A stretch of DNA of 64,000 nucleotides from Dehalococcoidales bacterium. GTDB taxonomy: Bacteria; Chloroflexota; Dehalococcoidia; Dehalococcoidales; UBA2162. The DNA lies in NCBI GenBank assembly GCA_030690265.1, contig JAUYHA010000049.1, forward strand, positions 62,001-126,000, in the 5' to 3' direction. Made by a program: the position numbers and the translations under genes. Of this stretch, positions 27,772 through 37,541 are shown piece by piece (positions within the stretch are counted from its first letter, which is position 1; every line of letters begins with the position of its first letter). The notes beneath the pieces are model-generated. The model made no database searches and was not told the origin of the DNA. It was given only the letters and a program-made list of their open reading frames with translations.

Positions 27772-27924
27772 CTATTGGTCGCCCTTTTCCCCCTTGAGTG
27801 CCTCTTTTAGTGAGTCAATCTCCCGTCGTAAGCCTCGTTGCCTGCCGAGCAGAACAAAAACATAGCCGAAAACTACCGCCCAGACGATGGCATAAGCTGT
27901 AAATAGATAGCCGCCATTCTCCAT
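27772..27924 (-). CDS. ccmD: CcmD-family heme exporter subunit
   Basis: 50-residue protein with a single membrane helix (YLFTAYAIVWAVVFGYVFVLL) followed by a basic, helical tail (GRQRGLRREIDSLKEALK). ATG 27924, with GGAG about 9 nt upstream. It is directly downstream of ccmC (25-nt gap), the usual position of ccmD. In the family CcmD stabilises release of holo-CcmE from the CcmABC complex. Confidence 0.8.
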   Translation of the reverse strand: MENGGYLFTAYAIVWAVVFGYVFVLLGRQRGLRREIDSLKEALKGEKGDQ

Positions 27925-27949: not shown

Positions 27950-28630
27950 TTATCCTTGAACGTATTCCTTCAACCTCTTTACCTCCACCTCATCATGCTT
28001 CAGTGAGACTCTCTGTATCAGGAGGAGGGCATATAAAGCGGTGAAGGCAAATATGCTGACCATAAGGGTTAGGCGCATATCGGGAGCCAGCCCGCCGCTT
28101 GAGAAGATTAAGGCTGGAGGATGCAGTCCTGGCTCCTGCAGGGTGGGCAGGATGATTGTCAGGGCGACAATGGGTATATCAATGAAGCCGATGATGCCGA
28201 CGACTGCAGCAAACCTGGCCCCCCGGGATTCCTCGGCGGCAAATGAGCGTGCCACGAAGTAGGTAAGGTAGATGAACCAGAGGACGAGGGTAGATGTCAG
28301 GCGGGGAGTTCCCCAGTCCCACCACACTCCCCAGGCGGGCTTTGCCCAGATGGAGCCGGAGATGAGGGTCAGGGTGGTGAAGATAATACCTATCTCAGCC
28401 GCAGAGTAAGCCAGGATATCCCATCTCTCCGCCCTTCCGGTAAGATAGAGAATACTGCTGATAAAAATAATCAAGAAAGACAGCATAGCCAGCCATCCCG
28501 AAGGGACCATAATGTAGAAAATCCTCTGCACAATCCCCATCTCTGCTTCGGTACTGACATAAACAAAGACGAGATAGAGGGCAGCCACCATCAGCCCCAG
28601 GCTCAGCCAGAATAAGATGTATCTTTTTAT
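27950..28630 (-). CDS. ccmC: Heme exporter protein CcmC, probable ATA start
   Basis: Six-helix heme-handling protein that loads heme onto CcmE. The tryptophan-rich heme motif is WGVWWDWGTPRLTS. The first ATG (28591) would cut the first membrane helix in half. The frame stays open upstream to a TAG at 28648, and reading from an ATA at 28628-28630 gives KRYILFWLSLGLM, completing the helix, with AGGAG 8 nt before it. No ATG, GTG or TTG lies in that stretch. So the start is most likely ATA 28630, giving 226 residues. Separated from ccmB by an interspersed repeat. Confidence 0.88.
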   Translation of the reverse strand: MKRYILFWLSLGLMVAALYLVFVYVSTEAEMGIVQRIFYIMVPSGWLAMLSFLIIFISSILYLTGRAERWDILAYSAAEIGIIFTTLTLISGSIWAKPAWGVWWDWGTPRLTSTLVLWFIYLTYFVARSFAAEESRGARFAAVVGIIGFIDIPIVALTIILPTLQEPGLHPPALIFSSGGLAPDMRLTLMVSIFAFTALYALLLIQRVSLKHDEVEVKRLKEYVQG

Positions 28631-28871: not shown

Positions 28872-29543
28872 CTATTCTTCGATAACGAAGGTAAAGACCA
28901 GGAATGACACCACCAGGAAAATAATATCAAAAGCGGCTATTATCTGAAGCCAGGAGGAGAGACTGCTCCAGGCTTCACCTGAAAGTGACAGTCCCGAAGC
29001 TCTAACGGCACTGATAATGAGCGGGATAACAATGGGGAAGAAAAGAATGGGCAGGACCATCTCCCTTGCCCTGGTATTGACCGCCAGAGCAGAAAACAGG
29101 GTACCCACAGCGACAAATCCCACCGTGGTTAAGACCGTGATGGTAATAAGCTGGGGTGAGAGAACAGCCAGATTGGAAAGGAAAGCAAAGATAGGCAGGG
29201 CTATCGCTTCGATAATCAGCATAAAAAGGAGGCTTCCCACCATTTTGCCGACATAGATAGCCTCCCGGCTTATCGGAGCTACCATCAGTCCCTCAATGCA
29301 GCCCTCTTCTTTTTCCAGGACAAAAGAACGGTTGAAGCTCAACACTCCGGCAAAGGTAAAAGTGACCCAGAGGATACCCGGGGCTACCAGCGCCATTGTC
29401 TCCTGGCTGGCTCCAAAAGCGAAATTAAAGATTACTATTACCAGAAGAGTGAAAATCAGCACTGAAAAAATAATCTCCCTGGTCCGCATTTCAGAGAGAG
29501 CGTCCTTCCAGGCAATGGCTATCACTTTACGCCAGAAACTCAT
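28872..29543 (-). CDS. ccmB: Heme exporter protein CcmB
   Basis: 223 residues with six predicted membrane helices. Permease partner of CcmA in the ABC complex that drives release of heme-loaded CcmE. Start MSFWRKVIAIAWKDALSEMRTREI and FAGVLSFNRSFVLEKEEGCIEGL are characteristic. ATG overlaps the ccmA stop by 4 bp. Confidence 0.93.
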   Translation of the reverse strand: MSFWRKVIAIAWKDALSEMRTREIIFSVLIFTLLVIVIFNFAFGASQETMALVAPGILWVTFTFAGVLSFNRSFVLEKEEGCIEGLMVAPISREAIYVGKMVGSLLFMLIIEAIALPIFAFLSNLAVLSPQLITITVLTTVGFVAVGTLFSALAVNTRAREMVLPILFFPIVIPLIISAVRASGLSLSGEAWSSLSSWLQIIAAFDIIFLVVSFLVFTFVIEE

Positions 29544-30271
29544 ACTTTGACACTTGTACTGTGCTGATAGGCTTGCCTCAATCCTGCCAGGTCCAAGGCT
29601 TTTCTTGTCCCTTCGTAGACAATCTGTCCCTTATCCAGAATGAGCAGGCGGTCGCCCAGTTCAAGCCCTCGCTCCAGGTTATGGGTGGTAAGGATAGTGG
29701 TGTGTTTCCTTTCTCCCCCGGTGCGCAGTGCCTCCCAGAGCATCGACATGGCTTGCTGGTCTAACCCTGCTTCGGCTTCATCCAGCAGCATTAAATCCGG
29801 CTTGTGCAGCAGGGAACGGGCCACAGATACTCTCTGCTGCATACCCCGGGAAAGAGTGCCTACCCGGTCGTGGAGGCGGGATGTTATTGCCACCATAGCG
29901 GCTACCTCGGTAATTCGTGTTTTATATCCGGGCACATCATATAAGCGGCTGTAGAACTCCAGATTTTCATAGGCAGTGAGATTGCTGTAGAGGAAAGTCT
30001 GGTGGGTAACCACGCCAATCCGGCGGCGGATTTCTTCAGCGTTGTTCCTGGGGCTCAGGCCGTCAATCAGGACAGTGCCAGAAGAAGGGTTCATAATGGT
30101 GGCTAACACCTTGATTAAAGTGGTCTTGCCGGCCCCGTTAGGACCGAAGATGACAACAGACTCCCCCCTCTTTACCTCAAGGTCTATTCCTCTCAAAACA
30201 CGCTGATGGCCGAAGGATTTGGTCAGCCCCTGGATTTCGACCAGGCTTCTTTGAGGAGTGGAACCAGCCAT
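29540..30271 (-). CDS. ccmA: Heme exporter ATP-binding protein CcmA
   Basis: 243-residue ABC ATPase. Walker A FGPNGAGKTTLIK, Q-loop VVTHQTFLY, signature LSRGMQQRV, Walker B LMLLDEAEAGLD, switch His in LTTHNLE. Its 5' end shares one base with the stop region of the upstream gene (30271). Position between the unknown 30271-31440 gene and ccmB identifies it as CcmA. Confidence 0.93.
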   Translation of the reverse strand: MAGSTPQRSLVEIQGLTKSFGHQRVLRGIDLEVKRGESVVIFGPNGAGKTTLIKVLATIMNPSSGTVLIDGLSPRNNAEEIRRRIGVVTHQTFLYSNLTAYENLEFYSRLYDVPGYKTRITEVAAMVAITSRLHDRVGTLSRGMQQRVSVARSLLHKPDLMLLDEAEAGLDQQAMSMLWEALRTGGERKHTTILTTHNLERGLELGDRLLILDKGQIVYEGTRKALDLAGLRQAYQHSTSVKV

Positions 30272-31440
30272 TACCTGCTGCCCTTCCCCTTTTTTATGCC
30301 CTGTGTTAACTCAACCAGCTGATTTTTCTTCTCACTCCGCAGCCTGCGGTAAACTTTTTCCGAGATTTCACTGGCCTCGAAATCGTCATCCAGCTGAGCG
30401 AGTTCAGCAAGTAAGCCCCCTCTTCTCTGGTCAAGAGTGCCGCTTTTAGAGGTCACCGGCTGAAGCCTGTTCTTCTTCATCAGATAGGAAAGACCAAAAC
30501 CACCGCTCAGTGCTACCAGCGCCAAGACCGTCCAGAGAATAGTTCCCTGATTACTGCTTTCCGGCAGTCCGGAAAGCTGAGCTGTCACGATATCGCCCGG
30601 AAGAAGCTGCCCGCCGGAAAGGTAATTAAAGCTGGCGCCTTCAATATCCACCGGTTCATTTGATACTAACCGGTCGCTGGCAACCTGGCTGGTCTCGCCT
30701 TTAACCAGGAAATTGTAGTTAGCAATCGGGTAGTTTATTTTCTGAGAGAAGTCATATCCTCCTGATTTGTAGTCCACTCTGTAAGAGTAAGCTATCTCTT
30801 TAGTTCCGGGCATGACTGCCATGGTATCAGTAAGACCATCCTCGCTATTGAGAACGCAGCACTCCATCAGTTCTCCGCCGTATTGTAGCCCGGTCATTTT
30901 TTCGGGTAGTGGAAATCGCAATGTGCGTCGGGTGCCTGTAGCAGTGATTTCTCCTGACCCGATGTAGGTATGGTCAGTTTCGTTGGTAAAACGGTAAAAT
31001 TCCATTATCTCAAGGCTGCCTTCTCCAGGGTAAATAATAGTATGAGCGTCAGTTACTTTGATTGCTTCATCACTCTGGGTCGAGTCATAGACGGTGAGCA
31101 TGGTAGATTTGGTCGTCTCTCCCTCACCAAAGCTGAGCCGCTCACCATTGTACTCTGCCTCCTGGTAAGTGATGGTTATCTGATAACTGTAGCTTGAGCC
31201 GGTTGACAAACCATCAAAGGTGAACTGACCGTCGGGGCTGGTTTTGCTTGTACTTGAGGTTGTTTCGGTGTCGTTAAGAAAGGTCTTTAAAGTAATTTCC
31301 TGGTCGGCAACACTGCCGCCGCCTTCGGTACTATTAACTATCTGTCCCTGAATTGTCCCGCTGCCCGGTTCGGCAGCCAGCGCCGCTGAAGAAAAGCTCA
31401 AAGCAATTAACGTGGTTAATAAAACAATATGCTTAATCAA
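30271..31440 (-). CDS. Unknown exported membrane-anchored protein of the ccm operon
   Basis: 389 residues. N-terminal signal peptide (cleavage near SSAALAA-EP), then a carboxypeptidase-regulatory-like beta domain (TIQGQIVNS ... PDGQFTFDGLSTGSSYSYQI, residues 25-105), a second beta-rich region to about 300, one membrane helix (ILWTVLALVALSGGFGLSYLM), and a basic cytoplasmic tail with a helical hairpin (GLLAELAQLDDDFEASEISEKVYRRLR). That tail resembles the C-terminal helices of CcmI-like proteins. I do not recognise a named family. Its place inside the ccm operon, overlapping neighbours on both sides, suggests a role in apocytochrome handling. Confidence 0.75.
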   Translation of the reverse strand: MIKHIVLLTTLIALSFSSAALAAEPGSGTIQGQIVNSTEGGGSVADQEITLKTFLNDTETTSSTSKTSPDGQFTFDGLSTGSSYSYQITITYQEAEYNGERLSFGEGETTKSTMLTVYDSTQSDEAIKVTDAHTIIYPGEGSLEIMEFYRFTNETDHTYIGSGEITATGTRRTLRFPLPEKMTGLQYGGELMECCVLNSEDGLTDTMAVMPGTKEIAYSYRVDYKSGGYDFSQKINYPIANYNFLVKGETSQVASDRLVSNEPVDIEGASFNYLSGGQLLPGDIVTAQLSGLPESSNQGTILWTVLALVALSGGFGLSYLMKKNRLQPVTSKSGTLDQRRGGLLAELAQLDDDFEASEISEKVYRRLRSEKKNQLVELTQGIKKGKGSR

Positions 31441-32047
31441 TTTGTGGCTCCTTTTTCAGGTTTGCCCCGCAATTGGAGCAAAAAAAGTCACTTTCTTCAA
31501 CCCTGCTCCCGCATTGGCTGCAGAAATTTCTCTCTTCCCGGGGCATTTGCTGTACTTCCTTCTCCGCTTTTTGTTTGATGTCTGTTTCCTTTTTTGCTCT
31601 GGCGGCAGTCTGGGGGCGATGAGTACGGCTCCGGCGCAGTGCCAGAACCTGCTTTTCAATTTCATCGCCGGTCTCTCCCCTTTTTGACTTAGTCGAAATC
31701 TGGCGGCGGGGTCGGGCTTTGCCCCGGCGTAGGTTCAGAACCTGCTTTTCTATTTCATCATCCGCTTCAGGACTCTTGTCCAGATTATCAATACCTTTCA
31801 GTATAGATATAGCTTTTTTCTTGTATCTTTCCTCCAGGTCATGGTAGTCCTCCTCGGTCAGGACGCCTGATTGGAAGTCAAATTCCAGCTCCTTGAGCAT
31901 GGAATAGGTGGTATTCCGCCGGGATGATAATTCTCCCAGTTCCTCATCCTCGAATGAACCTGAAAGGGCTGGTTTTCGTTTCAGCAATGGATAGGTCACG
32001 AAGGCAAAAGTCGCTGCTGTCAGCACCAGAGCCACAAAGATAGTCAT
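31433..32047 (-). CDS. CcmI-like membrane protein with C-terminal zinc ribbon
   Basis: 204 residues: one N-terminal membrane helix (MTIFVALVLTAATFAFVTYPLL), a helical segment (NTTYSMLKELEFDFQSGVLTEEDYHDL) like the N-terminus of CcmI-type proteins, a basic linker holding two copies of DEIEKQVLNLRR/DEIEKQVLALRR about 33 residues apart, and a zinc ribbon (CSQCGSRV ... CSNCGANL). CcmI normally chaperones apocytochrome c through TPR repeats, which are missing here. Overlaps ccmH by 4 bp and the next gene by 8 bp. Confidence 0.75.
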   Translation of the reverse strand: MTIFVALVLTAATFAFVTYPLLKRKPALSGSFEDEELGELSSRRNTTYSMLKELEFDFQSGVLTEEDYHDLEERYKKKAISILKGIDNLDKSPEADDEIEKQVLNLRRGKARPRRQISTKSKRGETGDEIEKQVLALRRSRTHRPQTAARAKKETDIKQKAEKEVQQMPREERNFCSQCGSRVEESDFFCSNCGANLKKEPQID

Positions 32048-32550
32048 CTAAAACCCCTCTCCTCAAAAGCTTTCAGTTCCATCTCCAGCCGGTAGCGGTA
32101 TTCCTCTTCCTCCCCCTCTTCAACTTCGGTTGTGATTTTGGCCTGGTCTGCCTGGCCTTGTCCTACCCATTTCCTTATTGCAAAGTAGATTACTCCCCCG
32201 CCAGCCAGTATCGCCGCGAAGGGTAAGAGCCAGGCTACCAGATTAAAGCCTTGCTTGGGGGGGGAAGCCAGCACCTGTTCCCCATACTGGGCGACAAAAA
32301 ACTGGACAATCTGTTCCTTCGATTGCCCATCATCGATTTTTTGCTTGATTACGGTGGTCATCGAGTCCCGCACCATGCATTCGCCATGGGTACAGTTACT
32401 TAAAACTGCTGTGCAGCCGCACTGGCAGATGAGCTCGTTGTCTATGTCACTCACTGTTACCGAGTTTGCCATAACCGGAGAAGCAGAAAGAATCATAAAG
32501 AGCAGAATAGCGCCAGCTAAAATAGCGCCAAAAGTGTTTCCCAGTTTCAT
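32044..32550 (-). CDS. ccmH: Cytochrome c-type biogenesis protein CcmH
   Basis: 168 residues with signal peptide, a CcmH/NrfF helical domain, a membrane helix (LVAWLLPFAAILAGGGVIYFAI) and a charged tail. The usual RCXXCQ redox site is replaced by LICQCGCTAVLSNCTHGEC, a cysteine-rich variant known in some Chloroflexota and other lineages. Reduces apocytochrome thiols and presents them to CcmF. Two bases from ccmF. Confidence 0.88.
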   Translation of the reverse strand: MKLGNTFGAILAGAILLFMILSASPVMANSVTVSDIDNELICQCGCTAVLSNCTHGECMVRDSMTTVIKQKIDDGQSKEQIVQFFVAQYGEQVLASPPKQGFNLVAWLLPFAAILAGGGVIYFAIRKWVGQGQADQAKITTEVEEGEEEEYRYRLEMELKAFEERGFR

Positions 32551-32552
32551 CC

Positions 32553-34529
32553 TTATCCTCCCTCACTGCCGTCCTGTCTCGGAGCCGGCAGTTTCTGGCG
32601 CTCGGGCCAGAAAGCGATTAACCCACCCAGGATGAAGACGCCTCCACCAATCCATATCCAGCTGACTAAAGGATTGATTATGACCTTGAAGGCAGTGGCG
32701 CCGTCCTCTTCCCAGCCAATGAATATAACATACAGGTCTTCAAGGAGAGTAGAGCGGATTGCGACCTCGGTCACTGACTGTTCGTAGCTGCGGTGAAAGT
32801 ATTTTTCTGGTGTTAACCTGCCGAGTAGTTCCCCCCCGTTAGAAACAGAGAGGGTTGTCGTAACCACGCTTTTGCTCTGGGTATCATAAGAGGTTATATT
32901 CTCATAGGTGATGATGTAGTTATTGATAGTCATTGATTCGCCGGGCTTAAGGGTGATCTCCCTTTCAACATTATAGAGCGAGGAACCAACAACCCCGATA
33001 GCGATAAGAATGATACCGATATGAACAATATAGCCACCGTAGCGGGGTCTATTAGCACCAATCAAGCCAAAAAATGCCTTGAGATAGTTATCTCCCCTCA
33101 TCCTGTGGCGGGCTCTGCTGCCCCGGAACCATTCATAAAGTATGGTAGATAGGACAAAACCACAAACCACGAAAGCAATAAGGGCATACCATTGCCTTAT
33201 GCCGAGGACGAAGAGGACTATGCCTAGTATTAGTGCCGCCACCAGCGGGCCGAGGAAATTGCGGACCAGGTTTTTGATTGACGCCCGCCGCCAGCCAATA
33301 AGAGTACAAATCCCGGCAAGCAGAATAATGGCTAAGAAAATGGGCCCGTTCACCTGATTGAAGAAAGGTGGGCCAACACTAATCTTGGTGCCCCGCACTG
33401 CTTCGGATATTACCGGGAAAAATGTTCCCAGGAAGGTAGCAAAGGCAGCCCCCACCAGGAGCAGGTTGTTCAGCAGGAAGGTGCTTTCCCGGGAGACAAG
33501 GGATTCCATCTCCGCCTCACTCTTTAGCTCTTTACTGCGGTGATAGAGTAGACCTAGCGAGCCAAAGAGGGTGATACCAATAAAAGCCAGAAACAGGTTG
33601 CCTAGTACGGGAGACTCGGCAAAGGTGTGCACTGAGGAAAGAACACCGCTCCGCACCAGGAATGTGCCCAGTATTGATAGGGAAAAGGTGATTATTATCA
33701 GCGCCATATTCCAGACCTTGAGCATTCCCCTTCTTCTCTGCATCATAATGGAGTGAAGGAAGGCAGTAGCTGTCAGCCAGGGTATAAAGCTGGCGTTCTC
33801 TACCGGGTCCCATGCCCAGTAGCCTCCCCAGCCAAGCTCAACATATGCCCACCAGCCACCAATAAGATTACCAATTCCAAGGAAGAGCCAGGCAACAAGC
33901 GTCCACCTTCTGATGACTATTAACCACTCATCGCCGAGCCGTCTGGTTAGCAAAGCAGCCATGGCAAAGGCAAAGGGGATGGTGAAGCCAACATAGCCGG
34001 CCAGCAAAGCTGGCGGATGAACTATCATTCCCGGATTCTCAAGCAGGGGGTTAAGTCCCATTCCTTCAGCGGGAACAAACGGTAGCGTGTGGAAGGGATT
34101 TGATACCCAGAGCAGTAAAATAAGGAAGAAGGCCTGGGTGACCATGATGATTGAAGAAGCATAGGGTATTAAATTCTTACCGAGGTCTCGTTTCTGAAGT
34201 AACAGCACAGTGGCAAATATGGAGAGAAGCCATGCCCAGAAGAGTAATGAGCCGGCGTTGCCAGCCCATAAGGCGCTCAGGAGGTAAGCCAGGGACAGGT
34301 CACTGCTGGTATATGAGGCGACATATTCTATCTGGAATTTATGAGTAACCAGGGCATAAAGCAGTATCCCTACCGATATAGAAACCAATCCGCAGGCAGC
34401 CAGAAGACTGTTTTTAGCACTGGCAACCAGACGCGGTTGTTTTCCCCTGGCTCCGAGTGCAAAGGAAACAGCCGAGTAAATTGAGGCTACCAGCGCCAGG
34501 AGTAGAGAGATGTAGCCAATATCCGCCAT
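32553..34529 (-). CDS. ccmF: Heme lyase CcmF/NrfE-type
   Basis: 658 residues, about 15 membrane helices. Ligates heme from CcmE to CXXCH motifs. Tryptophan-rich heme motif GGYWAWDPVENASFIPWL and HPPALLAGYVGFTIPFAF are diagnostic. The C-terminal periplasmic domain with EITLKPGESMTINNYIITY is also typical. Long cytochrome list nearby (39 CXXCH motifs) explains the need for a full lyase. Confidence 0.95.
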   Translation of the reverse strand: MADIGYISLLLALVASIYSAVSFALGARGKQPRLVASAKNSLLAACGLVSISVGILLYALVTHKFQIEYVASYTSSDLSLAYLLSALWAGNAGSLLFWAWLLSIFATVLLLQKRDLGKNLIPYASSIIMVTQAFFLILLLWVSNPFHTLPFVPAEGMGLNPLLENPGMIVHPPALLAGYVGFTIPFAFAMAALLTRRLGDEWLIVIRRWTLVAWLFLGIGNLIGGWWAYVELGWGGYWAWDPVENASFIPWLTATAFLHSIMMQRRRGMLKVWNMALIIITFSLSILGTFLVRSGVLSSVHTFAESPVLGNLFLAFIGITLFGSLGLLYHRSKELKSEAEMESLVSRESTFLLNNLLLVGAAFATFLGTFFPVISEAVRGTKISVGPPFFNQVNGPIFLAIILLAGICTLIGWRRASIKNLVRNFLGPLVAALILGIVLFVLGIRQWYALIAFVVCGFVLSTILYEWFRGSRARHRMRGDNYLKAFFGLIGANRPRYGGYIVHIGIILIAIGVVGSSLYNVEREITLKPGESMTINNYIITYENITSYDTQSKSVVTTTLSVSNGGELLGRLTPEKYFHRSYEQSVTEVAIRSTLLEDLYVIFIGWEEDGATAFKVIINPLVSWIWIGGGVFILGGLIAFWPERQKLPAPRQDGSEGG

Positions 34530-34554: not shown

Positions 34555-34956
34555 TCATTCAGGCACATATCTGGAGGGGCATTTCGGCATAAGGGTATGT
34601 GCCTGAAAGACGCCATCTGAATCAAGATAACCTTCAATAACAATCTCACTGTCAACTTTGAAGGTGTCGGGGACGACCCCCTGGTAAACCACAGGCAGGC
34701 TTCCTTCTCCATTAACATCGCTAATGGTGAACCTCAGTATGCTTCCTGCTGATTCCTGTTTTACGGAGCCGGCAGCCACCCGCCCGTTCACCCGTATATT
34801 CTTGTCGTAAATTGAGTCTCCCTGTATTGTGACTTCACCGACCGTATAGTAATAGGTCGCTGCATTGCTAAAAGCCGTGTACCCCAGATAGCTTATCGCC
34901 AGAAACACAATAAGACCACCGATAAGGAACTTTTTTTGTTTTAGCACACTATTCAC
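34555..34956 (-). CDS. ccmE: Heme chaperone CcmE, Cys-type (CXXXY) variant
   Basis: 133 residues: N-terminal membrane anchor, then an OB-fold (VGEVTIQG, IRVNGRVAAGSV, LRFTISD, VVYQGVVPDTFK, IVIEGYLD, TLMPKC). Classical CcmE binds heme through a histidine in HDENY. Here the end reads KCPSRYVPE: Cys 126 replaces the histidine and Tyr 130 is kept, the CXXXY form described from sulfate reducers and archaea. First gene of the ccm operon. Confidence 0.92.
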   Translation of the reverse strand: MNSVLKQKKFLIGGLIVFLAISYLGYTAFSNAATYYYTVGEVTIQGDSIYDKNIRVNGRVAAGSVKQESAGSILRFTISDVNGEGSLPVVYQGVVPDTFKVDSEIVIEGYLDSDGVFQAHTLMPKCPSRYVPE

Positions 34957-35182: not shown

Positions 35183-35341
35183 TTAAAACGAATCTCCTTC
35201 CTGTTCTGGTTCTAAAACATAGTGGCATGCATCGCAGCTGGCATCAAGTGTCTTGCCCTTTTGCTCACCGGTGGTGGCGACTAGCTTGCCGTGACATCTC
35301 AGACAGCCCGGTGATTTCTGAAATCTCAGCAAATATCTCAT
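35183..35341 (-). CDS. Small diheme-motif protein without signal peptide
   Basis: 52 residues: MRYLLRFQKSPGCLRCHGK ... SCDACHYVLEPEQEGDSF, with two CXXCH motifs (CLRCH, CDACH). ATG overlaps the cytochrome b stop by 4 bp (ATGA), a strong sign of translation. There is no export signal, so heme attachment by the periplasmic Ccm system is puzzling. Either the two motifs bind metal, or the polypeptide is exported with its partner or translated by read-through coupling. Last gene before the ccm promoter. Confidence 0.65.
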   Translation of the reverse strand: MRYLLRFQKSPGCLRCHGKLVATTGEQKGKTLDASCDACHYVLEPEQEGDSF

Positions 35342-36108
35342 TCTTTTGCCTCTCCTTCAACACTCTCTTCAACTGTCTCTCCTTCCTCATCCTCCTCAAC
35401 CATATATAATCTTTCGTATTCCAGAGGGTGGTCCCGACGGTAGCGTTCTCCGGATACTTTACCGGTAAATATGGAACTATTGAAGGGAAAGATGCCCGGG
35501 GTGAAATGGTTGAAAAAGATATGTACCAGGAAAATCCAGGTTAAGGCCAGCAATGCCTCATCGCTATGAGCTACCAGAGCCACAGGAACAACCCAGCCGG
35601 GCAGAAACCTGGTAGCCAGGACAGGATACATCAGAATAAAGCCCGAGCCAGCCATAACAGGTATTCCCCAGAAAATAGCCCAGTAATCAAACTTCTCTTT
35701 CCAGTTGAAGCGGTCATACCTGGGCATTTCTTTTCTCAACCCCAGGAAATAACCCAGCTCCTGAATGAGTTTCACAAAGTCATGAGGGCTGGGAATCATC
35801 TTTATCGGAAAAGGTCTCTTGAGGATAACGATGGTATACCATAGATAGGCCAGGTGATACAGGCAGACGAAAACCATTACCCAGCCCGCCAGATGGTGAA
35901 CGGCGCGGGTGACTTCAATCCCTCCCCACACTCCCACCCACCACTGGCTGATTGCCGATTCGTGATATTTTAGCGGGAAACCGGTAACCACCAGCAGTAT
36001 AAAGCTCACCATCAGTATGGCGTGTTGAATTATTTGGTGGATATCAAAACGGGTAATCTTCTCTTCCAGCCCTTGTTCTAGCGGCATGGCTTCACTTACG
36101 GTCGCCAT
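35338..36108 (-). CDS. Four-helix cytochrome b, formate dehydrogenase-gamma/HyaC-like
   Basis: 256 residues. Membrane helices with heme-ligand histidines: FDIHQIIQHAILMVSFILL, TRAVHHLAGWVMVFVCLYHLAYLWY, and LVAHSDEALLALTWIFLVHIFFNHF. It should carry two b hemes and exchange electrons with menaquinone. ATG 36108 is preferred (GGAGGG 7 nt upstream, overlapping the stop of the preceding gene). C-terminal tail is acidic and cytoplasmic. Paired with the heptaheme cytochrome c upstream as a quinone-cytochrome c module. Confidence 0.88.
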   Translation of the reverse strand: MATVSEAMPLEQGLEEKITRFDIHQIIQHAILMVSFILLVVTGFPLKYHESAISQWWVGVWGGIEVTRAVHHLAGWVMVFVCLYHLAYLWYTIVILKRPFPIKMIPSPHDFVKLIQELGYFLGLRKEMPRYDRFNWKEKFDYWAIFWGIPVMAGSGFILMYPVLATRFLPGWVVPVALVAHSDEALLALTWIFLVHIFFNHFTPGIFPFNSSIFTGKVSGERYRRDHPLEYERLYMVEEDEEGETVEESVEGEAKE

Positions 36109-36110
36109 CT

Positions 36111-37016
36111 TTACTCCCTCCATCTATTGACGGAAAACCTTACGGTGGCGAAAAAGACCACCAGAGCACCAAAGGAAACGACGGATATCAATAGAGTAGT
36201 AAAAATTATTTCCGTGTAATGTGCCGCCGGGATATTCTGCGGTGATGCTTCCTCGTGCCCGAGAAAGCCGCTGGCAAACTCAACCCCGGCACCGGGATGG
36301 CACTGCTCGCAGGTTTTTGCCAGATTTTCCAATCCGGCTACTGGGGAGGTGGGGTCACTCACGCTCTTTATATCGTGGACACCATGACAGTTGGTGCAGG
36401 TCGCTTTATCCAGCTGGCTTATTTCATAGGTGCCCAGTTGCATTGCCTTGCCATGAAAGCTGCGCGTATAGGACTCGTAGACCTTCTCAACAATGGCGTA
36501 GTTTGCCATAAGCTCTTCATTGTTATGGCAATTAGCACAGGTCCGGGCGATATTCTTTTTATAGGTAGGAGCGTCATATTGAAGCACCCGGACGATGCTG
36601 TGCGGATTATAGTCTGGGCTATGGCAATCTACACAGGTAGCCACATCCTGGTTGCCCCTGGCTAGCTGCTGCCCGTGGACGCTTTGAAGGTGTAATTTGT
36701 ATTGATACTGATGGCAGCTGCCGCACTTTTCCGCCAGTGATAATTTGGTTAGTGGGGTGATAACCTCGTGCGGTTCTGATGTATGGCAGGTAGTGCAATC
36801 TATAAAACGGTGAGCTCCGCTATTCACCGCCTCTTCATTGACGTAGAGGGATATTTTAGTACCTTCCCCGTTGGTCTTGGTTAGCCCCGGGTTACCGTGG
36901 CAGGACAGGCAATTGTTCTCATCAAGGCTGTAAACTCTGGTGGAGCCAAATAACAGAATCGGGATAAAGATTGCCAGTATAAGTCCTATAGCTGGGAATA
37001 GAGACACTCTTTTCAT
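36111..37016 (-). CDS. Heptaheme c-type cytochrome, membrane-anchored
   Basis: 301 residues. N-terminal signal/anchor helix, seven CXXCH motifs (CLSCH, CTTCH, CGSCH, CVDCH, CANCH, CTNCH, CEQCH), and a C-terminal membrane helix (IIFTTLLISVVSFGALVVFFATVRF). Intervening His residues (SVHGQQ, SFHGKA, HYTE) are candidate distal ligands. Two bases upstream of the cytochrome b gene, so the pair most likely forms one complex passing electrons from quinol to periplasmic carriers. The 37017-37235 gap upstream holds no gene that I can see. Confidence 0.9.
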   Translation of the reverse strand: MKRVSLFPAIGLILAIFIPILLFGSTRVYSLDENNCLSCHGNPGLTKTNGEGTKISLYVNEEAVNSGAHRFIDCTTCHTSEPHEVITPLTKLSLAEKCGSCHQYQYKLHLQSVHGQQLARGNQDVATCVDCHSPDYNPHSIVRVLQYDAPTYKKNIARTCANCHNNEELMANYAIVEKVYESYTRSFHGKAMQLGTYEISQLDKATCTNCHGVHDIKSVSDPTSPVAGLENLAKTCEQCHPGAGVEFASGFLGHEEASPQNIPAAHYTEIIFTTLLISVVSFGALVVFFATVRFSVNRWRE

Positions 37017-37235
37017 TTTCTGCCCCTATTTACCTCGGATTCACTGGAACCTGTTGGCTCCCCCCTTTGTCAGATGGTCACTTTTTGGACAAGTCTATAA
37101 ACCTGTTTGCACAGGCCCTTATATTGGAGATGCGCCGGTTCAGCCTCTGACTTTGCTTTATCGAGGCATCATTCTAATTATCCCTTCAGCTAGAAAGAAT
37201 CTTTTTCTTTTCCTGCCGGTTTTTCTATGTTATCC

Positions 37236-37541
37236 TTACCCTGCTGGTTGATGGCACCCGCGGCACATATCATTGGTGCGTCCGGCATGGTTGGCGGGGA
37301 AGGGCTTAATGCCACTTTCACCATGGCATACCAGGCAGTCGTCCCGTCCTTCGAGGGTGTGGGGTATTGCCGGTGGCCCCGCGGTTTCTGTCGGTTCCTC
37401 TGCCGGTGGCGTTTCGTCAGCCGGTGGAGTTGTATCTGGCGTGTTGGGGGTGGTGGTAGTTCCGCCACCACAAGAGATAGCCAGTAGAGTTAACCCTAGT
37501 ATCAGTGCAATCACCAAATACCAGGTTATCTTTCTCTTCAT
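37236..37541 (-). CDS. Diheme c-type lipoprotein
   Basis: 101 residues. Signal peptide with lipobox (LLAISC, Cys 24), a Thr/Pro/Glu spacer, then CLVCH and CRGCH. The core PHTLEGRDDCLVCHG ... IKPFPANHAGRTNDMCRGCH closely matches modules of the octaheme protein at 44710 (PHTLEGRTDCLSCHG; GIKPLPQDHLGRKSTTCLNCH). Probably a surface electron shuttle serving the same pathway. GGAGGTG ribosome site. Its promoter carries the regulator site described at 37616-37694. Confidence 0.9.
   Translation of the reverse strand: MKRKITWYLVIALILGLTLLAISCGGGTTTTPNTPDTTPPADETPPAEEPTETAGPPAIPHTLEGRDDCLVCHGESGIKPFPANHAGRTNDMCRGCHQPAG

Follow-up and report, generated by a model that had tools for sequence, protein, structure and literature searches.

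A cytochrome c maturation operon of Dehalococcoidales-like Chloroflexota with methionine at an axial histidine position of CcmC

We analyzed a 64,000-nucleotide stretch of DNA (the window) from Dehalococcoidales-like Chloroflexota and found an operon that probably encodes a complete, functional cytochrome c maturation (Ccm) system of the Cys type (System I*), in which the heme-loading site of CcmC appears to have been rebuilt. The surprising part of the operon is a methionine at the position of the CcmC axial heme ligand P-His1. A methionine CcmC was not met in the literature searched, unlike the pairing of CcmE and CcmH in the operon, which is known. A preliminary description of this DNA had pointed to CcmE and CcmH as the atypical components; it missed the methionine, the most unexpected feature.

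Operon layout and genomic setting

The operon lies on the minus strand (as do all window coordinates given here for its genes and codons) in the order ccmE-F-H-I'-CPD-A-B-C-D, and all of its genes are open reading frames. The first gene, ccmE (34555..34956, GTG start; Pfam PF03100), encodes a 133-aa Cys-type heme chaperone. It is followed by ccmF (32553..34529; 658 aa; Pfam PF16327 and PF01578), which encodes the heme lyase, by ccmH (32044..32550; 168 aa; Pfam PF03918), and by genes for a CcmI-like protein (31433..32047) and for CPD, an exported tandem beta-sandwich protein (30271..31440). The remaining genes are ccmA (29540..30271), encoding an ABC ATPase (Pfam ABC_tran; TIGR01189 127.1 bits, cut-off 131.6), ccmB (28872..29543; Pfam PF03379, 129.8 bits), and ccmC (27950..28591), encoding the heme-loading protein. 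Directly after ccmC is a 50-aa ccmD candidate (27772..27924), for which the Pfam CcmD match is weak (19.9 bits, E 0.00077, under the 25.6 cut-off) and the size and place fit. The preliminary description had called the locus a full System I operon, and profile searches agreed, finding E, F, H, the CcmI-like and beta-sandwich proteins, A, B, and C; the ccmD candidate is a member absent from that description.

Since five ORFs in the window, beside the operon and elsewhere, contain 2, 7, 8, 9, and 10 CXXCH motifs, the cell has cytochromes to mature. Three genes directly upstream of ccmE and in its orientation (35338-37541) encode likely clients of the Ccm machine: a membrane protein resembling cytochrome b561, a cytochrome with seven CXXCH motifs, and a lipoprotein-like protein with two.

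The assembly that carries the operon comprises 2.44 Mb in 196 contigs and is 91.7% complete, with 7.3% contamination; among named loci, the nearest in our scan for its CcmH carry the labels Dehalococcoidales bacterium and Chloroflexi bacterium. On contig C65, a second KCPSRY ccmE heads an E-F-H-I-CPD cluster whose proteins are 48-75% identical to their window counterparts, and the fetched region contains no ccmABC. Matches in the assembly to PF01578, which covers CcmC, CcmF, and CcsA, were limited to two CcmF and the one CcmC of the window. With no CcsA among these matches, System II was rejected as the real route of cytochrome maturation. The preliminary description also stated that no CcmG was visible, which is correct for the operon but not for the genome. 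At C150:92263-93551, a CcdA-like protein (29.4 bits, cut-off 27.1) adjoins a ResA/CcmG-like thioredoxin carrying a WCPSC motif (redoxin 105.9 bits; ResA model 139.4 bits).

A methionine at the P-His1 position of CcmC

The window CcmC matched Pfam PF01578 at 84.9 bits and scored 123.4 bits with TIGR01191 (cut-off 186). In our alignments, its Met28 (ATG codon, 28508..28510) is opposite His60 of E. coli (MG1655) CcmC, the P-His1 axial heme ligand, and the histidine is lost. P-His2 is kept as His157 (28121..28123, codon counted by hand; His184 in E. coli), as are the equivalents of W114, W119, W122, and W125; D126 is not kept. The protein is among the more divergent members of its group, with a WWDWGTP motif and an extra loop before P-His2. 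By contrast with P-His1 of CcmC, the heme ligands of CcmF are those of E. coli: all four histidines aligned to H173, H261, H303, and H491 are kept in the window CcmF, and all are histidine in 26 of 26 CcmF proteins from genomes with a methionine CcmC.

Passages of PMC9616876 (see also PMC10457321) identify P-His1 and P-His2 as the residues that ligate heme in CcmC. We found no mention of methionine at P-His1 in the open PMC literature searched, including portions of PMC8112865 and PMC13141917, and H60 did not appear in the portions of PMC6204919 and PMC12077264 consulted. No P-site heme ligand is reported for any Cys-type system in the parts of the literature consulted.

An order-wide survey of 151 genomes yielded CcmC-like matches in 75, some of the weakest of which are probably other WWD proteins. 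Among 100 distinct CcmC ORFs from 97 genomes (three mis-hit CcmF rows were left out of the alignment), the P-His1 residue was methionine in 23 and histidine in 77. Since the same residue occurs in 23 ORFs of independent assemblies, sequencing error at the methionine codon was rejected. The partner of a methionine CcmC was a Cys-type CcmE in 17 cases and a His-type CcmE in none, with no CcmE in view in the other 6; for histidine CcmC, the corresponding numbers were 44, 10, and 23. In a 98-row CcmC tree (which left out rows shorter than 170 aa, identical rows, and all rows from the cross-phylum loci described below), a single branch (support 100/99) separated the methionine rows from the rest, indicating that the methionine had a single origin. 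The association of methionine CcmC with Cys-type CcmE therefore rests on one event, and the 44 operons that combine a histidine CcmC with a Cys-type CcmE reveal that this type of CcmE does not require methionine.

The presence of CcmH was also compared between the two groups. Within the order, CcmH was in view of the ccm operon at 11 of 20 methionine loci and 0 of 40 histidine loci; contig ends truncate several loci in each group. Where a methionine operon had ccmE and ccmF in view, CcmH was of the CxCxC type in 10 cases and absent in 5, and in one the ORF was cut before the motif. Since methionine operons without CcmH exist, methionine and CxCGC CcmH are not strictly coupled.

Other residues of the CcmC heme site are highly conserved alongside the methionine. 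In 34 methionine rows, which combine survey ORFs with loci from the cross-phylum scan and include some of the same genomes, W114, W119, W122, W125, R128, and H184 were kept in 34 of 34 among the positions tabulated. D126 was present in none of these rows, with glutamate there in 28. Judging from the six constant residues, the site is maintained rather than decayed. Changes near P-His2 accompany the methionine, as T182 is replaced by glycine and V177 by threonine in 21 of 23 ORFs each. A replacement histidine or cysteine nearby in CcmC was rejected, since no such column was gained: in the methionine rows, no column except P-His2 is at least half histidine, and no column is at least half cysteine.

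It is very improbable that the operon is an unused relic and the divergence of its CcmC a sign of decay. The WWDWGTP-bearing CcmC and the second EFHI operon on C65 are what such a reading can point to, but every operon gene is open, the fetched C65 cluster lacks ccmABC and the assembly has only one CcmC, the methionine is common to 23 ORFs, and multiheme cytochrome genes adjoin the operon.

Could the methionine simply be tolerated? In an otherwise ordinary System I*, the change at P-His1 would be near-neutral, with P-His2, the WWD cradle, or CcmE supplying ligation. The single origin of the methionine is compatible with this, as is the histidine of most Cys-type operons. Moreover, according to passages of PMC9616876, heme in E. 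coli CcmABCD has been observed with P-His1 as its sole His ligand or with none, implying that ligation is labile. We nevertheless consider near-neutrality unlikely. All 23 ORFs of the group, drawn from many families, have methionine without exception, whereas neutral drift should have left a mixture, and the T182 and V177 positions beside P-His2 changed along with it. In addition, passages of the same paper report that neither holo-CcmE nor cytochrome c is made in E. coli when CcmC carries H60A or H184A.

Our tentative reading, on which we are almost evenly divided, is that a large Dehalococcoidia lineage replaced P-His1 of CcmC, an axial ligand regarded as essential, by methionine and that heme is presented to Cys-type CcmE with Met/His or single-His ligation. 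Methionine would be a weaker or softer axial ligand, giving Met/His or effectively single-His coordination, and heme held in this way might be released more readily or passed on more readily to CcmE, whose cysteine is a soft nucleophile. If this is true, nature would have rewired the WWD heme site so that the strength of the ligand matches the chemistry of the residue that accepts heme. The System I* literature (passages of PMC3601427) raises the question of how the stable thioether that joins heme to the CcmE cysteine can be made and then broken. As both the acceptor (cysteine in CcmE) and one donor ligand (methionine in CcmC) differ, these operons may offer a natural handle on loading versus release.

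A Cys-type CcmE with a five-cysteine CcmH

The window CcmE matched Pfam CcmE at 97.5 bits over residues 34-132 (cut-off 24.6) and ends in LMPKCPSRYVPE, which contains the heme site KCPSRY, an example of CXXXY. The CPSRY codons (Cys126 to Tyr130), counted by hand from the translation, occupy 34567..34581 and fall inside the interval 34555-34600 where the preliminary description had placed a Cys-type KCPSRY site. That description had also raised a second, His-type CcmE elsewhere in the genome as the possible true chaperone. Of the four CcmE-domain proteins in the assembly, two carry KCPSRY and the other two end in CXXCH. No His-type CcmE is among these matches, which rules out that candidate for this assembly, with absence not absolute at 91.7% completeness and 7.3% contamination. 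Relatives in a plasmid collection were only distant (<60% identity).

Covalent heme binding by a Cys-type CcmE of Desulfovibrio is described in passages of PMC3601427, and those of PMC9084895 report that C120 of the Methanosarcina CXXXY motif is required for heme attachment. By analogy with these and other known homologues, CcmABCD would load heme onto the window CcmE, with the covalent bond forming at Cys126 of CPSRY rather than at a histidine and Tyr130 becoming the later iron ligand. Holo-CcmE would then hand heme to CcmF and CcmH for attachment to the CXXCH motifs of apocytochromes. Either the unlinked CcdA/ResA-like pair or the five-cysteine CcmH, or both together, could keep the thiols reduced.

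CcmH is classical in family and unusual in motif. The protein matched Pfam CcmH PF03918 at 71.2 bits (cut-off 25), and it contains LICQCGC where the classical CXXC (LRCxxCQ motif) is not present. Its five cysteines (CQCGC...C....C, Cys42-Cys58; codons 32377..32427, counted by hand) are invariant alignment columns, conserved as CxCGC...C...C in 19 of 19 aligned members. An AlphaFold model (pLDDT 86) matches the known three-helix periplasmic fold, in agreement with the family profile; the top Foldseek matches were 2HL7 (prob 1.00) and 2KW0 (prob 0.95), with E 0.07-0.1. In a quick tree built from few columns, CxCxC CcmH proteins formed one branch (SH-aLRT 95); this tree retains two stray rows, L192 and L195, which at those positions are probably other zinc-binding ORFs. 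The CxCGC CcmH is a five-cysteine subfamily spread over many phyla. We found no mention of CxCGC CcmH in the open PMC literature searched, including portions of PMC8112865 and PMC13141917.

The cysteine pair of classical CcmH is thought to be redox-active. The preliminary description was right that this CcmH is atypical, but in calling LICQCGC a redox site it went too far, as five invariant cysteines fit either a thiol relay or a metal site. Reductant from the CcdA/ResA-like pair may pass through the protein, or the protein may bind metal. A possible reading, which we consider less likely than not, is that the five-cysteine CcmH is mainly metal-binding or structural (zinc or iron-sulfur) and that the unlinked CcdA and ResA/CcmG-like pair performs the thiol chemistry. 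Five invariant cysteines without a CXXC, together with a genome that encodes CcdA and a redoxin, would suit this role, while the resemblance of the AlphaFold model to the periplasmic domain of classical CcmH (2HL7 and 2KW0, at the modest E values given above) argues against it.

The pairing of this CcmH with a Cys-type CcmE is widespread. In a class-wide survey of 119 genomes, we detected CcmE in 58 and CcmH in 50. The 103 distinct CcmE-domain ORFs from Dehalococcoidia comprised 80 of the Cys type, 15 of the His type, 5 ending in CXXCH, and 3 with no readable motif (the His-type count is 15 and not 16, as an automatic 'His' call at G039:C11 had no real motif). Within operons, the partner of a CxCxC CcmH was a Cys-type CcmE in 21 of 21 cases. 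For CXXC CcmH, the partner was His-type in 10 and Cys-type in 5, the latter having Phe or Met for Tyr. The relationship between CcmH type and CcmE type gave a Fisher p of 1.2e-5, not corrected for shared ancestry. These counts leave out 10 CxCxC and 20 CXXC CcmH without a CcmE within contig reach and one CcmH ORF cut before its motif.

A cross-phylum scan for CcmH gave 80 loci. In 49 of them a CxCxC CcmH occurred together with a CcmE that could be scored, and each of these CcmE was Cys-type. As the scan was seeded with CxCGC CcmH, it is uninformative on Cys-type CcmE with other CcmH. The figure of 49 of 49 holds after locus L164 is read across a run of Ns: an apparent His-type CcmE beside a CxCxC CcmH at that locus was an artefact, since the N-run shifts the frame and KCPSKY lies in another frame. 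The recurrence of five-cysteine CcmH with Cys-type CcmE in many phyla points to a difference in thiol chemistry at the lyase as well.

Thus, the coexistence of Cys-type CcmE with CcmH, which the preliminary description had singled out, is no oddity. Such coexistence was already published, CxCGC CcmH is the usual partner within operons, and Cys-type CcmE is the majority form in the class. CcmE and CcmH are each atypical relative to E. coli and together are of a standard, recurrent kind.

Among the His-type CcmE of the class (e.g., G001:C8, G043:C9, and G030:C36), the heme site is HXXXF or HXXXM in 15 of 15 and HXXXY in none. The later iron ligand of E. coli CcmE (Tyr134) is therefore missing there.

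Accessory proteins, known Ccm systems, and related genes

Two further proteins are encoded between ccmH and ccmA. The CcmI-like protein has one membrane span, the N-terminal segment of CcmI (NCBIfam TIGR03142 20.6 bits, under the 29.3 cut-off), and a C-terminal zinc ribbon (Pfam 25.9 bits) in place of TPR; no Pfam match to a periplasmic TPR domain was found in it. CPD, which has a weak CarboxypepD_reg match, spans the membrane and has a cytoplasmic tail that is CcmI-like; this C-terminal tail aligns with the segment of the CcmI-like protein (hhalign probability 96%). The periplasmic beta-sandwich part was modeled by AlphaFold with a pLDDT of 89.8; the nearest folds were ribophorin I (OST) at a TM-score of about 0.32 and M1 aminopeptidase beta-sandwiches at about 0.3. 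Besides Chloroflexota, several other phyla have CPD in their ccm operons, and no description of its role was found in the literature searched. We suggest that the CcmI-like protein and CPD may jointly replace CcmI in apocytochrome handling.

The operon is closest in content to System I* (Allen 2006; Goddard 2010; reviewed in 2011 in PMC3601427), with which it shares a CXXXY CcmE, CcmABCDEF, and the lack of ccmG in the operon. It contains the CXXXY motif and CcmABC with CcmF, and no CcmG is encoded in the operon itself, the CcdA and ResA/CcmG-like pair being elsewhere in the assembly. It differs in having a five-cysteine CxCGC CcmH, a zinc-ribbon CcmI-like protein without a TPR match, an extra beta-sandwich gene, and methionine at P-His1. 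Absence of CcmH belonged to the original 2006 description of System I*, but passages of the review hold that it is not characteristic, so that it no longer defines the system. According to those passages, a Cys-type CcmE is present in delta-proteobacteria, chloroflexi, and firmicutes, and CcmH in about one third of the bacteria with that CcmE. Ferroglobus and ANME-2d have also been reported to carry CcmH, and ANME to have a duplicated CcmF (passages of PMC4429474 and PMC9012536).

With the classical System I of E. coli (ccmABCDEFGH), the operon shares the gene set except ccmG, the CcmF ligands, the CcmC tryptophans, and P-His2. E. coli differs in its CcmE His130, CXXC CcmH, ccmG in the operon, and CcmC His60, and passages of PMC3601427 describe a TPR-type CcmI domain where the window CcmI-like protein has no TPR match. 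The streamlined Ccm of archaea such as Methanosarcina shares the CXXXY CcmE; as described in passages of PMC9084895, these archaea are without CcmD, CcmH, and CcmI, whereas the window operon encodes CcmH together with a CcmI-like protein and a candidate for CcmD.

A third, short relative of CcmH is encoded on contig C176 (L043:7483-7785), a 100-aa lipoprotein with LNCVCGN..C and no ccm neighbors among the ORFs listed. Some kilobases away (L043:949-5415) is a cluster in which an ABC ATPase is encoded together with two FtsX-like permeases and a CTFCGA-type membrane protein; this may be an unrelated set for metal uptake.

CcmE-like proteins that end in CXXCH and lack CXXXY made up 10 of 171 CcmE-like ORFs (one genome counted twice). 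Two are in this assembly (G000:C65:8690-9076 and C150:79323-79775); others are at L153:6848-7273, L164:11756-12427, L173:3202-3603, L174:13578-13979, L208:9780-10190, G008:C334, and G040:C60. Six of nine such genes are near an E-F-H-I-CPD cluster with no ccmC in view. The proteins may carry heme, may themselves be tiny c-type hemoproteins, or may bind metal. At L005:7649-8649 and L007:6358-7355, the CXXCH-ended gene is preceded by genes for a lipoprotein and for a membrane protein of 178 aa with a conserved AACCAHHLADVLPLLGLSG, neither of which has a Pfam match. The same pair precedes a true ccmE in other genomes (e.g., G024:C2).
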